NCBI GenBank assembly: GCA_002787235.1
Contig: PCWG01000025.1
Span: forward strand, 1-61,689
Source of the DNA: Nitrospinae bacterium CG11_big_fil_rev_8_21_14_0_20_45_15
Lineage (GTDB): Bacteria > Nitrospinota > Nitrospinia > Nitrospinales > VA-1
Length of the DNA stretch: 61,689 bases
Direction: 5' to 3'
Both the position numbers and the translations under genes were made by a program. This document shows positions 12,940-23,365 of the stretch, piece by piece. Below the pieces are notes generated by a model. It saw only the letters and a list, made by a program, of their open reading frames with translations. It did not search any database and was not told where the DNA came from. The first letter of the stretch is position 1. The number at the start of each line of letters is the position of its first letter.

Positions 12940-13239
12940 TTAAAGAACTTCTAAATGATGAGGGTGGTCCATACTCTTGTGCAAAATCCGAGCTACGAAA
13001 ATTCCTGAAGGCTGGATCACATAGAAAATCATATGACTCACGAAATTGAATTTGTAAATTCCATCTTCGATATCTTTGGCCTCACGGCCTTTCAACGGAT
13101 GTTTTGCGAGGTCTCTCAAACACAGGCTGATATCCTGCAAGTACTTATCTGCCTGCCTTTCCCCAAATGACTGCAAAGAATAAGAATATATATTCACCAA
13201 GTCTTGATCGGCCTTTTGGGAAAGCTCGTACCGCGACAT
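12940..13239 (-). CDS. parE: ParE-family toxin
   Basis: The 99-residue protein has the RelE/ParE fold pattern: YELSQKADQDLVNIYSYS at the N terminus, a middle block DLAKHPLKGREA, and the C-terminal IFVARILHKSMD. ParE toxins poison DNA gyrase; this is known for the family and not shown here. It begins three bases after the antitoxin stop, the usual antitoxin-toxin order. Length and end are normal, so the system looks intact. Confidence 0.9.
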   Translation of the reverse strand: MSRYELSQKADQDLVNIYSYSLQSFGERQADKYLQDISLCLRDLAKHPLKGREAKDIEDGIYKFNFVSHMIFYVIQPSGIFVARILHKSMDHPHHLEVL

Positions 13240-13242
13240 ATT

Positions 13243-13467
13243 TTATTTTTTTCGCTTGATATCTTTAACGATATCCTCAATCTGTCGAGGACTCGTACCG
13301 CTATTCAAGCCTTCCAGGACAGCTATCTTCAAAGCTTCGCGTTTTCTCTGATCCATACGGATCAAATCGCGAATATAATCGCTTGCGTTGGAAAAATCGC
13401 CGCCCTTTACTTGTGCGTCAATCCAGCTACGCATGGTATCGGGTAAGGAAACATTCAAACTCGCCAT
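13243..13467 (-). CDS. parD: ParD-family antitoxin
   Basis: The 74-residue protein begins with a ribbon-helix-helix DNA-binding domain (MASLNVSLPDTMRSWIDAQV, then SDYIRDLIR) and ends in a charged tail that would wrap ParE. ATG 13467 follows AAAGGAGG. The pair is expected to repress its own promoter (13504-13533), which contains TGCC/GGCA and further ATTGGCA-like repeats that could be the operator. Confidence 0.9.
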   Translation of the reverse strand: MASLNVSLPDTMRSWIDAQVKGGDFSNASDYIRDLIRMDQRKREALKIAVLEGLNSGTSPRQIEDIVKDIKRKK

Positions 13468-13619: not shown

Positions 13620-14057
13620 TTATTTTTCTAACAGGAAGGTGACGGGTCCGTCGTTGAGCAGTTCGATTTTCATGTCGGCGGCGAAGCGTCCGCTTGCCGT
13701 TGCGATACCGCAGGCTTCAATTTTTTTTATGTAACGTTCGTACAGTGTGCGGGCACTATCGGGATGGGCGGCTTTGTCGAAGCTGGGACGACGTCCTTTG
13801 GAGCAATTCCCGGCCAGGGTGAACTGGGAAACGGCAAGGATTTCTCCGCCAATGTCCAGGCAGGAAAGATTCATTTTCCCCGCATCATCGGGGAAAATAC
13901 GGAGCAGGGCGGTTTTCTCTGCGAGGTGGTCGGCTGTCTCGGGGGCATCTCCTTCTTCGATCCCTACCAGAGCCAGGATGCCTTTTCCAATGCGGGCGAT
14001 TTCTTCACCATTCACGCGCACGACAGCATAGGCGACGCGCTGTAATAAAATTTTCAT
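13620..14057 (-). CDS. dtd: D-aminoacyl-tRNA deacylase
   Basis: The 145-residue enzyme removes D-amino acids (and glycine) mischarged on tRNA. The two active-site strands are present: SQFTLAGNC (canonical SQFTL) and NDGPVTFLLE near the C terminus (canonical cis Gly-Pro). ATG 14057 is chosen from homology; the nearest AAAGGA is 13 bases away. It lies 97 bases downstream of the aminoacyl-ligase-like gene on the same strand and may share its transcript. Confidence 0.95.
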   Translation of the reverse strand: MKILLQRVAYAVVRVNGEEIARIGKGILALVGIEEGDAPETADHLAEKTALLRIFPDDAGKMNLSCLDIGGEILAVSQFTLAGNCSKGRRPSFDKAAHPDSARTLYERYIKKIEACGIATASGRFAADMKIELLNDGPVTFLLEK

Positions 14058-14154
14058 TGTGAAAAGTTCATTTCCTTTGAGTCGTTATTTTCATGAAGTT
14101 AAAATTTCCCCCTGGCTAATTAATTGCTGGCAGATCGTTACCGCTTGTGCTATT

Positions 14155-15219
14155 TCAAATTTCCTTACGAACGGATTCTGGCCAGCGTTTTGTATCCAAT
14201 CCGTATTGCGCGAGAAATCCCCAGGTCAAGCGTTCGATGCCGAATCCGGCGCAACCTGTGGCGGCTGTGTTTCCTCCCTCTGAGATCTCAAACGGTCTGC
14301 TGTAGTGATCCGCATGATAATTGAACGATGCGGCCGCCAGTGAGGCTCCCGATGCCGGGAGCGCAATTCTCAATTCCCACTTAAGAGGTACTGAGGCTGT
14401 AAAGTCTGAGCCGGAAACGGGATCGTCCGCTTCCTGCACCCAGGCACGCAAACCGAGGCTTTGCATCCATTCGACGGTCAGGGTTTCGATTTCCCTCAAC
14501 GAGTTGCGCACGAAGATGGGCGTTCCCATATAAACCGTTTCCCGCATGATGAATTCCCATAACCGGTCCGGGGAGAATCGGTCGGAACCTTCATAGCGAT
14601 AACATCGGCCCTGGGTGGTGAGGGTGGTGTCTCCGGGAAGTGTTCGCTTGCTGAAATGCGGGTAACAGTGCAGGCAAACTGCGGGCTTGCCGAGGTGCTC
14701 GGGCGTTTGCGTTCCGGGTACAAACCAGGTGGCGTCTTGATCGGTTCCGTAATCTGGATAGTGCATCAGTTTGCGGGGAATCAGATTCGGGTAGACAAAT
14801 TCCTCAGGGCCTTGCTTCAGAGCCATGCGATAACACTCCCGCTCAAAATATTTGAAGGTCTTGAGGAACAGATGCCCCATGCCGTATTGACCGGGACCGA
14901 AAGAGATGAGATGGTCGCCTTCAAGCAGTTCTGGAAGGAGATCGTGTTTGCAGAAACAGGGAGCAGTGCGATTGTCGAAGACAGGGCGCATTTGCAATGA
15001 ATCCAAAAACTCCGCATCGGTGGAATCGTTGAGCATGGCCTGGACGATCGACTCGATATGAGGAACGCTGTCTGCATCCTTGCAGGTGTAACGGAGTTCA
15101 GTTTCGGAAACGACAGTCAGGCCGAGAACCTGATCACAGACATACGGAAGATAAAAACGGAGCCGGGCCAGCGCATTGGCAGTGGCTGTTGAGTTCAAGA
15201 TCAGGGATTTCTCAATCAT
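14155..15219 (-). CDS. Amino acid:carrier-protein-ligase-like class II synthetase homologue
   Basis: The 354-residue protein resembles the class II catalytic core of atypical seryl-tRNA synthetases without tRNA-binding arm. Motif 2-like QGRCYRYEGSDRFSP and motif 3-like TGCAGFGIERLTWGF are seen, along with ASFNYHADHYSRPF. Candidate zinc ligands are Cys in VCLHCYPHF, Glu in CYRYEG and Cys in TGCAGFG, as in the Bradyrhizobium amino acid:[carrier protein] ligases that adenylate Gly or Ala and load it on a phosphopantetheine carrier. I take ATG 15219; TTG 15231 is possible. No carrier protein is visible nearby. Substrate and partner are unknown. Confidence 0.75.
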   Translation of the reverse strand: MIEKSLILNSTATANALARLRFYLPYVCDQVLGLTVVSETELRYTCKDADSVPHIESIVQAMLNDSTDAEFLDSLQMRPVFDNRTAPCFCKHDLLPELLEGDHLISFGPGQYGMGHLFLKTFKYFERECYRMALKQGPEEFVYPNLIPRKLMHYPDYGTDQDATWFVPGTQTPEHLGKPAVCLHCYPHFSKRTLPGDTTLTTQGRCYRYEGSDRFSPDRLWEFIMRETVYMGTPIFVRNSLREIETLTVEWMQSLGLRAWVQEADDPVSGSDFTASVPLKWELRIALPASGASLAAASFNYHADHYSRPFEISEGGNTAATGCAGFGIERLTWGFLAQYGLDTKRWPESVRKEI

Positions 15220-15292
15220 GATAGCAGTCAAAAAGTAGGAAAGGACAAGCTCAAAAACCGAAGCTCTGGTGTGTTAAATTCAAGGTCACAAT

Positions 15293-15321
15293 ATCATATA
15301 AACCTTTCCAATCCGTGACAA
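15293..15321 (-). promoter_or_regulatory. Promoter of the ligase-like gene (and probably dtd)
   Basis: Minus strand: -35 TTGTCA (15321-15316), 17-base spacer, -10 TATGAT (15298-15293), about 70 bases ahead of the start codon. Confidence 0.65.
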
Positions 15322-17669: not shown

Positions 17670-18779
17670 ATGATCAAAGCATTAAAAAATACAGGGATCG
17701 GGAACTCAAAAAATGTTTTGAGATATATTTTTGGACCCGGAACTCTTAAAGAGCTGGATGGCTTGATCTCAAAACAAACCAAACTGGAAACCGACTATAC
17801 GGTTTTTTTTGTTGATAGTTTTTTTGAGAAAGATTCTGCTCTATTGCAAGGTGTCCAGATTTCTTCGCGGGATCGGGTTATCTATGTCGATACTGGAAAT
17901 GAACCCACGACCGATTACGTAGATCAGTTGACACAGTCACTTTCCCAAAATAGCGATACGATCCCTTGTGCCATAGTGGGTGTGGGGGGAGGTGCCACTT
18001 TGGACATTGCCAAGGCGGTCGCAAATCTTTTGACAAATCAGGGGAAGGCTGAAGATTATCAAGGCTGGGATTTGGTGAAAAACCCGGGCGTTTATAAAAT
18101 TGGCATTCCCACACTTTCAGGTACAGGTGCTGAGGCAACGCGTACTTGTGTGATGACCAACCCCAAAAGCGGTCTGAAGTTGGGGATGAATAGTGACCAC
18201 ACCGTTTTTGATCAGTTGATACTCGATCCGGATCTGACGGCAACGGTTCCCCGCAATCAGTATTTTTATTCTGGCATGGATTCCTATATCCACTGCATTG
18301 AGTCGCTGTCTGGCCATTATCGCAATGCAATTGGGGACGCATTTTCTGATCAGTCCCTCAAACTTTGCCGTGAGGTCTTTCAGGACTCTTCAGCGCAGAG
18401 TGATGGGAACCGGGCAAAACTCATGGTGGCTTCTTACCTTGGTGGTTGTGCGATTGCGACCAGTTATGTCGGGATCATACATCCTTTTTCAGCAGGTCTT
18501 AGCGTTGTTCTTGGCGTGCACCATTGTCTTGCGAACTGTATAACGATCAAGGCTATGGCAGAGTTTTATCCCCGTGAAGTGGAGGAGTTTCTTAAATTTG
18601 TGGATTTTCAGTCGATACAAATTCCTGAAGGAATTTGTAAAAACTTAAGTTCCGATCAGTACGAGAGGTTGTATCAGTCGACAATCATTCACGAAAAGCC
18701 CCTTATGAATGCCTTGGGAGAAGATTTTAAAAATATTCTCACTCAGGAAAAAGTCATAGAAATATTCAATCGAATGTGA
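17670..18779 (+). CDS. kdnB: KdnB-like iron-containing alcohol dehydrogenase
   Basis: The 369-residue protein is a group III metal-dependent alcohol dehydrogenase. It has the dinucleotide site GVGGGATLDIAKAVA, the GIPTLSGTGAEATRT block, and metal ligands in MDSYIHCIES and LGVHHCLAN. From memory, YQGWDLVKNPGVYKIGIPT closely resembles Shewanella KdnB, which oxidises C8 of Kdo before amination to 8-amino-Kdo. Here the following genes are an aminotransferase and a NeuB-type synthase rather than KdsA, so the substrate may be a nonulosonic acid instead of Kdo (inference). The aminotransferase frame overlaps its stop or begins six bases later. Confidence 0.85.
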   Translation: MIKALKNTGIGNSKNVLRYIFGPGTLKELDGLISKQTKLETDYTVFFVDSFFEKDSALLQGVQISSRDRVIYVDTGNEPTTDYVDQLTQSLSQNSDTIPCAIVGVGGGATLDIAKAVANLLTNQGKAEDYQGWDLVKNPGVYKIGIPTLSGTGAEATRTCVMTNPKSGLKLGMNSDHTVFDQLILDPDLTATVPRNQYFYSGMDSYIHCIESLSGHYRNAIGDAFSDQSLKLCREVFQDSSAQSDGNRAKLMVASYLGGCAIATSYVGIIHPFSAGLSVVLGVHHCLANCITIKAMAEFYPREVEEFLKFVDFQSIQIPEGICKNLSSDQYERLYQSTIIHEKPLMNALGEDFKNILTQEKVIEIFNRM

Positions 18780-18784
18780 AAAAT

Positions 18785-19963
18785 ATGGAATTTAAAATTC
18801 CCTTCAGCGGCCGAGCGCACGATTATACAGAAGAGGAAATCGATACAGTTGTTACGGCGATGAAGTCGGCTAACCCGTTGACGCAGGGAAAATATCTCCA
18901 CGCCTTTGAGGAAAAGTTTTGCGATTATATCGGGGCAAAATATGCTTTTGCGGTTTCCAATGCAACGGCGGCTCTTGAGATTGCGGCCCAGCTCTGCCAA
19001 TTTGAATCGGGAGATGAGATTGTAATTCCTTCCCATACCTTCACATCTTCAGCGTATCCTTTTGCCAAAAAAGGGGCACGTCTGGTGTGGGCAGATATCG
19101 ATCCTAAAACCCGAGTGGTCACAGCAGAAACACTGTCCCGAAAAATTACAAAAAATACCAGGGCCATGGTGGTGCCTCACTTATACGGTTATGGTGCGGA
19201 TATGCCTGCCATAATGGACTTGGCAAAGAAACATGATTTGTTGGTTATTGAAGATGCGGCCCAGGCAATGGGAGTGGAGATAGAGGGAAATAAATCCGGA
19301 ACTTTTTCTGATTTTGGAGTTTTCTCTTTTCACTCACATAAAAATATTACGACTCTGGGCGAAGGGGGAATACTTGTTGTGAAGGATGAAGAAATCGCAA
19401 AAGTAATTCCTCTTTTGCGTCACAACGGACATTGCGCATTTCCTTATACAAGAAAGGATTATTGGATACCCGCAATGGGGAATCTGGATTTTCCTCGGAT
19501 CCATGGAAAAGACCTGTGGCCCAATAATTATTGTCTGGGGGAAATCGAGTGTGCTTTGGGGGCAAAACTTCTCGACAGGGTGGATCAAATAAATTTGGAA
19601 AAAAGGAATCGTGCCTTATATTTTATAGACGCGTTGGTAAATTTCCCAATGCTTGAATTTCACAGGGAAGACTCTGTTCGGCATAATTATCATCTCTTGG
19701 CCGCACGCATACTGAACGGGCAACGAGACAATTTTATTCGAAAAATGGCCTTAGAAAAGGGCATTCAATGCGTGGTGCAATACTATCCGCTGAACAGGTA
19801 TCCTCTTTATCAGCAGGCGGGATTTGGTGTGGCGGATTGTCCTGATGCGGATGAATTTTTCGATAATATGGTTTCGTTTCCATTTCATCACTGGTTGTCT
19901 GACGAGGACATGGACTACCTGTTGACTTCGACACGTGAAGTTCTTGAAAGCATGGAGTTGTAA
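18785..19963 (+). CDS. DegT/DnrJ/EryC1/StrS-family sugar aminotransferase
   Basis: The 392-residue PLP enzyme shows IPSHTFTSSAYP, VIEDAAQAMG and FSFHSHKNITTLGEGG, where the Lys of SHKN binds PLP. Members aminate keto or aldehyde sugars with glutamate. Directly behind a KdnB-like oxidase, it probably aminates the carbonyl that oxidase makes. It is not obviously orthologous to Shewanella KdnA. ATG 18785 is taken; GTG 18776 overlapping the previous stop would add three residues. It abuts the next gene without a gap. Confidence 0.88.
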   Translation: MEFKIPFSGRAHDYTEEEIDTVVTAMKSANPLTQGKYLHAFEEKFCDYIGAKYAFAVSNATAALEIAAQLCQFESGDEIVIPSHTFTSSAYPFAKKGARLVWADIDPKTRVVTAETLSRKITKNTRAMVVPHLYGYGADMPAIMDLAKKHDLLVIEDAAQAMGVEIEGNKSGTFSDFGVFSFHSHKNITTLGEGGILVVKDEEIAKVIPLLRHNGHCAFPYTRKDYWIPAMGNLDFPRIHGKDLWPNNYCLGEIECALGAKLLDRVDQINLEKRNRALYFIDALVNFPMLEFHREDSVRHNYHLLAARILNGQRDNFIRKMALEKGIQCVVQYYPLNRYPLYQQAGFGVADCPDADEFFDNMVSFPFHHWLSDEDMDYLLTSTREVLESMEL

Positions 19964-21583
19964 GTGAAAAAAGCGGTCATCATCCCCGCAGTTAAGAAAA
20001 ATGTTGCTTTTCAGGATGATCTTGTAAAAAAACTTGCAGGGGAGTCTCTGATTCAGCGAGCGATCGACAAGGCAATCGAGATCGTTGGTAAAGACAACAT
20101 CTATGTGGTGACAGATTCAGAAGAAATTTGTCTTCTGAGTCAGAGAAAAGGCGTTTGTTATTTCTACGAGAAATCACTCAATCTGCAACAAGCGGCCATC
20201 ATCGAAAATCTGATTGATTTTCTTTTTACCCTTTCTGATAAATTTAAAACCTTTATTCTCCTGTCTCCATACGCCCCCCTGCTCTCATCTGAAGAAATAA
20301 AAAAAGCCTTGCTGGAGTTTGAGTCGAAAGGTGAAAAACTTTTAATACCTGTTAAAAGGCAGTATGCGCGTGTTTTCACCAAAGATCACAAAAATGTTCA
20401 GGAGGTTTTGTCGGGGGAAGAAGAAAGAACCTTTCTGATAGAATCTCAGGCGTTTCAGATCATTGACAGCTCAGTGATTCGGAATGAAAAATTAAGATCG
20501 GCTCTCAAGCCTTATATTTATGAGCTGAGTTGCGATTTGTTTGATATCAAGGGGTATCAAGACTGGTGGGTATGCGAAAAGTTGTTGAAGCGGAAAAGAA
20601 TTGTTATTCGTGTGATCGGCGATGAAGAAGTGGGTATGGGGCATTTACAGCGCGCTCTGACGCTGGCCCACGAAATGAGCGATCATGAAATCCGATTTGT
20701 ATGCGATGAAAAAAGTAAGGTTGCGACCGATAAGTTGGCAGGTTACGACTACTGGTTAGGCATCTATAAACCGGATGAAATAGAGGATGCGATCGTGGCC
20801 TTGAAGCCAGATCTTGTCATCAACGATATTCTTGATTCGGGTCATGACTATATCAGGAAGTTACGTGACAATCATATTCCCGTCATAAATTTTGAAGATT
20901 TGGGTGAAGGTGCGAAGTTAGCAAACCTTACCATTAACGAGTTGTATGATGAACCACTGATTCCTGGTGAAAATTTCAAGTGGGGGAAAGATTATTTTTT
21001 TGTACGGGAAGAGTTTAACGATGCCTGCCCCAATCACTTTAAAGAATCCGTTACAAGTGTATTGATCATGTTTGGTGGTACAGATCCCAGTGATTACACT
21101 CGAAAAATTCTGCGGATTATAAAGAACGATTGTCGAATGAGAAATATTAAAATATATGTGATAACCGGCGGAGGTTATCCCTATATTGAAGAGCTTGAAC
21201 AGGAAATCGCTCAATGTACGGATCAAGAGATCGAGTATCACCACTCCATTGGAGTGGTTTCTCATATAATGGAAAAGGTGCAGGTGGCCATCTCTGCCAA
21301 TGGCAGAACCACATACGAGCTGGCTCATATGAATATACCTGCCATCGTTCTTTCGCATCATGAGAGAGAGAATACCCACAAGTTCACTCGCGAAGAGAAT
21401 GGCCATGTTCCTTTAGGTATTTGCGATGATTTTGAGGCAGAAAAAAAAGTGATAACAGCATTTAGACAATTGATCGACAATGTGGAATACAGAAAAAAGT
21501 TTCATGATCGCTTAAAAAAGTTTCAGTTCACTAAGAACAAAGACAAGGTGATCAGTTTGATTCATTCGATCATTGAACGCTGA
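19964..21583 (+). CDS. Fusion of cytidylyltransferase-like domain and PseG-like glycosyltransferase-fold domain
   Basis: The 539-residue protein starts at GTG, immediately after the preceding stop. Residues 1 to about 205 look like the CMP-sialate synthetase fold (KKAVIIPAVKK, VVTDSEEI), but the usual loop AARGGSKGIPxKN is degenerate, so catalysis is doubtful. From about 210 it resembles PseG/SpsG UDP-sugar hydrolases: IRVIGDEEVGMGHLQRALTLA, VINFEDLG, LIMFGGTDPSD, and AISANGRTTYELAHMNIPAI. PseG removes UDP from the hexosamine that feeds pseudaminic acid synthase. So it may supply the NeuB-type enzyme downstream. The fusion is unusual. Confidence 0.78.
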   Translation: MKKAVIIPAVKKNVAFQDDLVKKLAGESLIQRAIDKAIEIVGKDNIYVVTDSEEICLLSQRKGVCYFYEKSLNLQQAAIIENLIDFLFTLSDKFKTFILLSPYAPLLSSEEIKKALLEFESKGEKLLIPVKRQYARVFTKDHKNVQEVLSGEEERTFLIESQAFQIIDSSVIRNEKLRSALKPYIYELSCDLFDIKGYQDWWVCEKLLKRKRIVIRVIGDEEVGMGHLQRALTLAHEMSDHEIRFVCDEKSKVATDKLAGYDYWLGIYKPDEIEDAIVALKPDLVINDILDSGHDYIRKLRDNHIPVINFEDLGEGAKLANLTINELYDEPLIPGENFKWGKDYFFVREEFNDACPNHFKESVTSVLIMFGGTDPSDYTRKILRIIKNDCRMRNIKIYVITGGGYPYIEELEQEIAQCTDQEIEYHHSIGVVSHIMEKVQVAISANGRTTYELAHMNIPAIVLSHHERENTHKFTREENGHVPLGICDDFEAEKKVITAFRQLIDNVEYRKKFHDRLKKFQFTKNKDKVISLIHSIIER

Positions 21584-21596
21584 TGTTCTCTCTCCT

Positions 21597-22286
21597 ATGA
21601 AAACCAACACGGTCGCAATCATTCAGGCCAGAATGGGCTCCAGCCGCCTGCCAGGGAAAATGATGTTGCCGTTGCAAGGCATTCCCGTTGTCGAATGGGT
21701 TTTTAGAAGGACAAAAAGTGCCCAATCAATTCAGAATATCGTGTTTGCAATTCCAGCTACGGCCGATAATGACGTTTTAAATAATTATTTGACCGGGATG
21801 GGCGCGAATGTTTTCAGGGGCAATGAAAAGGATGTGGTCGAAAGATTTTTTTTAGCGGCAAAGGAATGGAATGCTTCTCATATCGTTCGGATATGTGCGG
21901 ATAATCCCTTTGTCACGGGTACGGAGATCGATCACCTTGTGAAGTTCTATTTCGAAATGGACTGCGATTACGCCTATAATCATATCCCCAGAAACAATCG
22001 TTATCCTGACGGAATGGGTGCCGAGATCGTTTCTTTTCGTATTTTGCAAACAATACATGAAGAGGCCGGGGTAGACGATCATCGGGAACATATTTTTAAT
22101 TACATCTGGGCGAATCCAGGAAAATTCAAAATTCTTACCTTTGATCCCGAAGATGAGAGGCTTGCTCAACCGGATATTAAATTGGATTTGGACACCTTGC
22201 AGGATTATGAAAAACTATGTTCGATGAATGTAGATATCGAAATGACGGCATATGAAATAATAGAACAGGCACTCTTAAAAAAATGA
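21597..22286 (+). CDS. SpsF/CMP-sugar nucleotidyltransferase-family protein
   Basis: The 229-residue protein has the nucleotidyltransferase loop AIIQARMGSSRLPGKMM, DVVERFFLAA and ICADNPFVTG, typical of SpsF-like cytidylyltransferases in spore-coat and glycan clusters. Sequence and context suggest activation of the keto sugar as CMP-sugar (inference). ATG 21597 fits the family start; a TTG at 21573 would overlap the preceding gene. It overlaps neuB by ATGA. Confidence 0.82.
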   Translation: MKTNTVAIIQARMGSSRLPGKMMLPLQGIPVVEWVFRRTKSAQSIQNIVFAIPATADNDVLNNYLTGMGANVFRGNEKDVVERFFLAAKEWNASHIVRICADNPFVTGTEIDHLVKFYFEMDCDYAYNHIPRNNRYPDGMGAEIVSFRILQTIHEEAGVDDHREHIFNYIWANPGKFKILTFDPEDERLAQPDIKLDLDTLQDYEKLCSMNVDIEMTAYEIIEQALLKK

Positions 22287-23365
22287 AATTATCTGAGATT
22301 TTAATAGCAGGTTGTCAGAATACCCGTGAGGTCGTTCGGCCTTATATCATTGCGGAAGCAGGCGTCAATCATGAAGGAGATCTGGATTTAGCCAGGCGGT
22401 TGATAGATGAAGCTTGCGAGGGCGGGGCTCATGCCATAAAATTCCAAACTTACAAGGCAGAAACTATCGCGTCCAAACATTCCCCTTCTTACTGGAATCT
22501 GAATGAAGAACCCACGGACAGCCAGTTCAAATTATTTCAAAAATACGATAAGTTCTGGAAAAAAGAATTTGAAGTTCTGAAGTATCACTGCGATAAGGTG
22601 GGCATCGAATTTCTCAGCACCCCCTTTGATTTAGAGTCGGCAACCTTCCTCAACGATTTGATGGAGGTATTTAAGATATCTTCTTCAGATATTACCAATA
22701 AACCCTTCATCGAGTTTATATGTGATTTTAAAAAGCCGATCATTTTATCGACAGGGGCATCTGATTTGGAGGAGATAGCGGACGCGGTCCGGTGGATTGA
22801 GGAAAAAGGGAATGTTTTAGCTCTTTTGCACTGTATTCTCAACTATCCCACAGAGGATGCAAATGCAAATCTGGCAATGATCGGAGACCTGAAAGTAAAA
22901 TTTCCAGGTAAAATCGTCGGGTATTCTGACCACACGCTTCCCAAAGACATGAAAACCCTGGAAACTGCGGTGATATTAGGCGCGAGCATTCTTGAAAAGC
23001 ATTTTACTCACGACAAAACCCTTCCCGGCAACGACCATTACCATGCGATGGATAAAGAAGATTTAAAAACATTCACGCAAAACCTTGATCGACTTTTTGA
23101 AATACTGGGGGAAAATGTCAAACGTTCGATTCCTTCCGAAAATCCGGCCAGACAAAATGCTCGGCGTAGTCTGGTCGCCAGCCGATTGATTCCAGCAGGA
23201 AAACAAATAGAGCCTGAAGACTTAACCTGGAAACGTCCAGCGCATGGCATCAGTCCCAAGGCGATTGACCAGGTATTGAATGCCAGAGCGTCGAGGGAGA
23301 TCGCTGAAGACAGTGTTTTGCAGTGGAGTGATGTTATTACAGGGGAAGAACCTAAAACCAGATAA
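22283..23365 (+). CDS. neuB: NeuB-type nonulosonic acid synthase
   Basis: The 360-residue enzyme condenses phosphoenolpyruvate with a six-carbon sugar to give a nine-carbon acid (sialic, legionaminic or pseudaminic type). Seen are IIAEAGVNHEGDLDLARRLI, AIKFQTYKAE, FLSTPFD, VGYSDHT and EKHFTHDKTLPGNDH, followed by a C-terminal antifreeze-like SAF domain (about 295-350). The sugar cannot be read from the sequence. It overlaps the upstream gene by ATGA and is last in the operon; a 10-pair hairpin covers its stop codon. Confidence 0.93.
   Translation: MKLSEILIAGCQNTREVVRPYIIAEAGVNHEGDLDLARRLIDEACEGGAHAIKFQTYKAETIASKHSPSYWNLNEEPTDSQFKLFQKYDKFWKKEFEVLKYHCDKVGIEFLSTPFDLESATFLNDLMEVFKISSSDITNKPFIEFICDFKKPIILSTGASDLEEIADAVRWIEEKGNVLALLHCILNYPTEDANANLAMIGDLKVKFPGKIVGYSDHTLPKDMKTLETAVILGASILEKHFTHDKTLPGNDHYHAMDKEDLKTFTQNLDRLFEILGENVKRSIPSENPARQNARRSLVASRLIPAGKQIEPEDLTWKRPAHGISPKAIDQVLNARASREIAEDSVLQWSDVITGEEPKTR

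Follow-up and report, generated by a model that had tools for sequence, protein, structure and literature searches.

What does an amino acid:carrier-protein ligase (aaCPL) do when there is no carrier protein beside it to load? The question is posed by one gene on a 61.7-kb contig of a Nitrospinota bacterium, the whole of which was analysed and is here called the window. In a passage of PMC9437257, aaCPLs are described as zinc-dependent dimers without a tRNA-binding domain, which they lost. The original prediction placed in the window a seryl-tRNA synthetase (SerRS)-like ligase that keeps motifs 2 and 3 and a Cys/Glu/Cys set, with no neighbouring carrier and with dtd, the gene for D-aminoacyl-tRNA deacylase, behind it. 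Text searches of the literature returned no paper on this Nitrospinota ligase clade.

A SerRS-like ligase and its relatives

The gene occupies 14155-15219 on the minus strand, runs from an ATG at 15219 to a stop codon at 14155-14157 and encodes 354 amino acids, exactly within the limits first proposed, where the strand was not given; a TTG 12 bases upstream of the ATG is also a possible start. The predicted SerRS-like ligase with the two motifs and the Cys/Glu/Cys set is confirmed. Against NCBIfam PRK07080 (‘amino acid--[acyl-carrier-protein] ligase’) the protein scores 113.8 bits (E 7.8e-33), which is not above the curated cut-off of 357 bits, and the match spans residues 178-353 only, the C-terminal half. 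A search of PDB sequences returned the aaCPL Bll0957 of Bradyrhizobium (9.7e-18) and archaeal SerRS (1.5e-11). The AlphaFold model (pLDDT 86.9, pTM 0.88; built on a 20-sequence input that replaced a 6-sequence input with pLDDT 52) matched aaCPLs and methanogen-type SerRS at Z 28-31, with archaeal SerRS at Z 31.3, aligned from model residue 75, and Bll0957 at Z 28.4, from residue 92. As judged by sequence and predicted fold, the protein is related to the aaCPLs, though far below the NCBIfam cut-off.

Like Bll0957 and the PRK07080 proteins, the window ligase has a SerRS-like class II catalytic core with motif 2 (CYRYE, residues 206-210, 14590-14604, minus strand) and motif 3 (CAGFGIER, residues 323-330, 14230-14253, minus strand). 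By alignment, the zinc-type ligands are C182 (14674-14676, minus strand), E227 (14539-14541, minus strand) and C323, the last within motif 3. These three, together with R208 and E210 of motif 2 and R330 of motif 3, fall in conserved columns of an alignment with 25 relatives; R226, K280, E282, S298, N300 and H302 are retained as well. Since the catalytic residues and the zinc set are kept, amino acid activation likely still works.

Unlike Bll0957, the window ligase has an extra N-terminal domain (residues 1-78, 14986-15219, minus strand), modelled as strand-helix-strand-strand-helix and without a PDB sequence match. The domain and the core also occur together in relatives from Streptomyces, from a gut scaffold (MT835751) and from genome G104, where the N-terminal match starts at model position 13; the domain is absent from the relatives of Rhizobium and Priestia. 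Methanogen-type (type 2) SerRS share the core (Z 29-31), but 3W3S is aligned only from model residue 75, with its N-terminal tRNA-binding domain unmatched, and residues 1-74 are unaligned to archaeal SerRS chains among the structural matches listed.

A canonical SerRS, moreover, is already found in five of the seven Nitrospinota genomes that carry the ligase. That of the window's genome (G000) lies on contig C21 and scores 547 bits; the window ligase is not the cell's SerRS. A serS gene above cut-off was not found in G042 or G047, and we rejected G042 as a genome that lacks SerRS. In G008 dnaX stands 1.8 kb after serS, and in G042 the first 1.57 kb of contig C63 (L152:1-1573) precede dnaX; because this contig starts where serS would be expected, the missing gene is likely an assembly gap. 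Neither gyrA nor gyrB was seen in the 1.82 Mb read of G042 (of ~ 2.9 Mb).

Carrier genes near the ligase

The predicted lack of a neighbouring carrier holds throughout the Nitrospinota loci. We trained a carrier HMM on 15 carriers and ran it over every reading frame at each locus. No carrier was detected anywhere in the window, and the count within ~ 1.3 kb of the ligase frame was 0 of 7 for Nitrospinota versus 24 of 26 for outside loci (four weakly). The flanks scanned were 61.7 kb for the window and 7.5-18 kb for the other Nitrospinota loci, G042 being short on one side. Nine of the 24 positive loci match by construction, because their sequences fed the HMM; the carriers of these nine are also named in their records or matched by Pfam. 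In a Pfam check of 20 carrier frames, PF00550 was found in 16 at E < 0.01 and in 12 of these above the gathering score, and the four without a match (L073-L076) were weak matches of our own HMM.

The two outside loci without a carrier match are L027 and the contig-end fragment L086. The first of these (Streptomyces sp. NBC_01237) has an intact FF...Q segment, described below, yet no carrier within 15 kb. In genome G143 (L043:7134-9152) a fusion protein has a domain resembling aminoglycoside 3-N-acetyltransferase (PF02522, 111.6 bits) in front of the ligase core. A carrier gene stands immediately upstream, and the protein is perhaps an aminoacyl transferase.

Degeneration of a putative carrier-recognition segment

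The absence of a carrier is accompanied by loss of the segment with which the ligase would recognise one. Native Bll0957 was compared over the stretch 24-328 with 4H2W, an engineered form whose crystal contains a carrier of different origin; there are seven differences, and every one falls within 241-251. Since the changes are so confined and the carrier in the crystal is foreign, it is very probably this segment that determines which carrier is used; we take it to be the carrier-recognition helix of Bll0957. In the PDB-construct numbering of Bll0957 the FF...Q segment comprises residues 237-251, and F237 and Q249 are each present in 26 of 26 outside sequences. Among the Nitrospinota ligases F237 is lost in five of six and Q249 in all six.

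In the window ligase the putative recognition segment (residues 266-280, 14380-14424, minus strand) is not intact: FF and Q are gone, it is six residues shorter than in Bll0957, and the AlphaFold model draws residues 264-279 as coil. Residues 157-177 (14689-14751, minus strand) are likewise shortened: a Y..SFP motif and the greater part of a helical stretch, both conserved in relatives, are missing. Among 26 outside rows (25 relatives plus Bll0957), conservation reaches 92% or more in 37 columns. Of these the window ligase keeps 28 and differs in nine, at 138, 161, 162, 207, 241, 268, 269, 274 and 306. Positions 268, 269 and 274 belong to the FF...Q segment and 161 and 162 to the Y..SFP stretch, and at 207 and 306 an F is replaced by Y.

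The loss of the segment is graded. It is of full length with FF in G047, of full length without FF in G004, two residues shorter in G008 and G042, and six shorter in G000 and G002. In a midpoint-rooted tree the relatives that share the N-terminal domain and the Nitrospinota clade fall to one side of a branch with 100/100 support. Unlike that clade, these relatives have an adjoining carrier (except L027) and keep FF...Q, the only deviations being a single F-to-I change in the gut scaffold and a single F-to-Y change in S. decoyicus.

Distribution and probable exchange of the gene

Within Nitrospinota the ligase is patchy, being found in 7 of 77 genomes (G000, G002, G004, G008, G042, G045 and G047), and close GTDB records carry the names Nitrospinaceae and Nitrospinae. 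Six of these ligases form one clade (support 100/99) in a tree that also includes 25 relatives from outside the phylum and leaves out G045, a contig-end fragment, and the fragment L086. Across the domain, 12 of 387 genomes matched, five of them outside the phylum and two of those with short, weak stretches. Further relatives occur on 67 plasmid records, all below 60% identity, and in a group of large genomes around G103, which we take to be Myxococcota.

Sequence comparison gives signs of horizontal exchange of the ligase as a single gene. A unit comprising the ligase and ~ 84 bases of leader (14146-15303, minus strand) is 93% identical between G000 and G002, which exceeds any of ten neighbours (ligase DNA 93.1%, neighbouring genes 64.6-86.8%), and dS between the two genomes is 0.19 for the ligase and 0.56 for dtd. 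Between G008 and G042, which are of different families, the ligase genes are 82% identical and the dtd genes 63%.

A viral source of the gene was considered and rejected: scans of IMG/VR found no relative, and the only match in a phage collection, MT835751, carries its own carrier. This record (L030), labelled Bacteriophage sp., is an unverified gut scaffold that holds a ligase gene, a carrier gene and genes like those of ABC transporters, and nothing near its ligase is clearly phage-like by eye. In G042, G047 and G045 the ligase has a CBS-domain gene as its neighbour; the domain is too common to weigh, and the place and direction of the gene in G042 are unlike those in G047 and G045.

Where does the amino acid go?

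With both the carrier gene and the carrier-recognition piece lost, the ligase probably passes its amino acid elsewhere. We tentatively favour the reading that it is a carrier-independent derivative of aaCPLs, which still adenylates an amino acid and hands it to an acceptor other than a carrier. The Nitrospinota enzymes would then be a derived clade of aaCPL relatives that gave up the carrier protein. To go by the residues kept, zinc would assist in binding the amino group of the amino acid, aminoacyl-AMP would form on the class II core, and the aminoacyl group might then move to an acceptor present in any host cell. Candidates are free thiols (CoA, for instance) and the amines or hydroxyls of small molecules or proteins; the structure of Bll0957 has been solved with coenzyme A (PDB 3PZC). 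An acceptor of this kind would explain how the gene can move alone and work without partners.

A more specific version, possible but held with less assurance, is a path from a tRNA-synthetase-derived ligase through a carrier loader to a carrier-free, solitary gene, with CoA or a small amine as the third kind of acceptor after tRNA and carrier. Should a carrier-free ligase prove true, the catalytic core used in tRNA charging and carrier loading would gain a further acceptor, the graded losses from G047 to the genus of the window would show steps of acceptor change, and the annotation ‘carrier-protein ligase’ would be wrong for the Nitrospinota clade.

The main rival is a regulatory or decaying enzyme, that is, a non-catalytic relative that binds an amino acid, an adenylate or only a partner protein, or a gene drifting to decay. 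HisZ is a regulatory, non-catalytic relative of HisRS. The ligase of G004 has lost all three zinc ligands together (C182 to G, E227 to G, C323 to S) and has probably lost or changed its adenylation chemistry, yet it is an open frame of 375 amino acids. Pairs that involve it have dN/dS of 0.165-0.215, a constraint similar to that within the clade as a whole (pairwise 0.14-0.22; in distant pairs dS approaches or exceeds saturation), and a frame so constrained despite the loss of the zinc ligands fits a non-catalytic role as well. The graded loss of the carrier segment and the patchy presence of the gene also favour regulation or decay. However, motif 2, motif 3 and the putative zinc site are intact in the other five ligases compared (the window and four of the five other aligned Nitrospinota sequences), and decay alone would not spare them. 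We consider a regulatory or decaying enzyme rather unlikely.

Carriers elsewhere in the genome

Could the ligase be an ordinary aaCPL that acts in trans on AcpP or another carrier encoded elsewhere? Its core fold matches Bll0957 at Z 28, and G000 encodes a holo-ACP synthase and has three PF00550 matches, on contigs C30, C21 and C41. A carrier elsewhere in a known cluster would have counted against the original prediction, and the outcome is mixed: carriers do exist, but none is on the window contig and each belongs to a pathway of its own. The C30 carrier is AcpP, between fabG and fabF (gene names by eye). The neighbours of the C21 carrier are a pair of FAD oxidases and genes that resemble fabZ and a reductase gene (names by eye). 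We rejected this carrier as the partner of the ligase, since G014, a ligase-free genome, also has the cluster's flavoprotein, dehydratase and reductase genes; a PF00550 match adjoins them there, though the gene picker drew no gene for it. The C41 carrier is part of a Dlt-like operon that includes an adenylation enzyme of its own (AMP-binding, 248.9 bits) along with MBOAT-like and SGNH-like proteins (the last two by eye). It, too, was rejected, as the Cys-rich gene beside it is found in 1 of 77 genomes and thus in one of the seven with the ligase.

The Cys-rich family, which has no Pfam match, adjoins carriers at L041:10241-10999 and L024:6648-7391. Its members in the G104 ligase-carrier locus and in the G000 Dlt-like operon, two unrelated settings, are 30% identical (1e-37).

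The ligase genomes have three PF00550 matches (G000, G002, G008 and G047), four (G004) or one (G042 and G045). In G042, which is 97% complete, the sole match is the AcpP of the fatty acid operon (gene names by eye), a count that carries the same caution as the missing serS of that genome, a likely assembly gap. Holo-AcpP, present in every host, could be the acceptor after all. Nevertheless, the degenerate recognition segment, the separate pathways of the G000 carriers, the single ligase genome with the Cys-rich gene beside its C41 carrier and the AcpP-only G042 all argue against action in trans, which we regard as distinctly improbable.

dtd and the neighbourhood

As predicted, dtd (13620-14057, minus strand; PF02580, 174.6 bits) follows the ligase, 97 bases downstream on the same strand. 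The two genes adjoin in two of the seven ligase genomes, G000 and G002, which are of the same genus; in the other five dtd is on another contig. Their order is p599-ligase-dtd in G000 and p584-dtd-ligase in G002, where a 148-bp second copy of the 3' end of dtd, ~ 90% identical, follows the ligase (L016:9427-9573). The opposite order and the partial copy argue that ligase and dtd were shuffled at one spot and form no fixed operon. The suggested tie to editing is unsupported, because adjacency is limited to one genus and the order is swapped. That the ligase works with Dtd on mis-acylated or D-amino acids, whether free or tRNA-bound, is barely credible: it has the adjacency in G000 and G002 in its favour, but against it are the five genomes without adjacency, the swapped order, the lack of a visible archaeal-SerRS-like tRNA-binding domain (3W3S aligning only from residue 75) and the canonical SerRS of five genomes. 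What probability remains beyond these four readings goes to something else.

Beside dtd, the window holds a ParE-type toxin gene (PF05016, 63.1 bits) and a likely antitoxin gene (12940-13467), and the same interval in G002 holds a DUF2971 gene in their place. Farther along, at 17670-23365, genes for an Fe-ADH, a DegT aminotransferase, a cytidylyltransferase and a NeuB-like protein (NeuB by eye) stand in a row and resemble a surface sugar cluster of the nonulosonic acid type.
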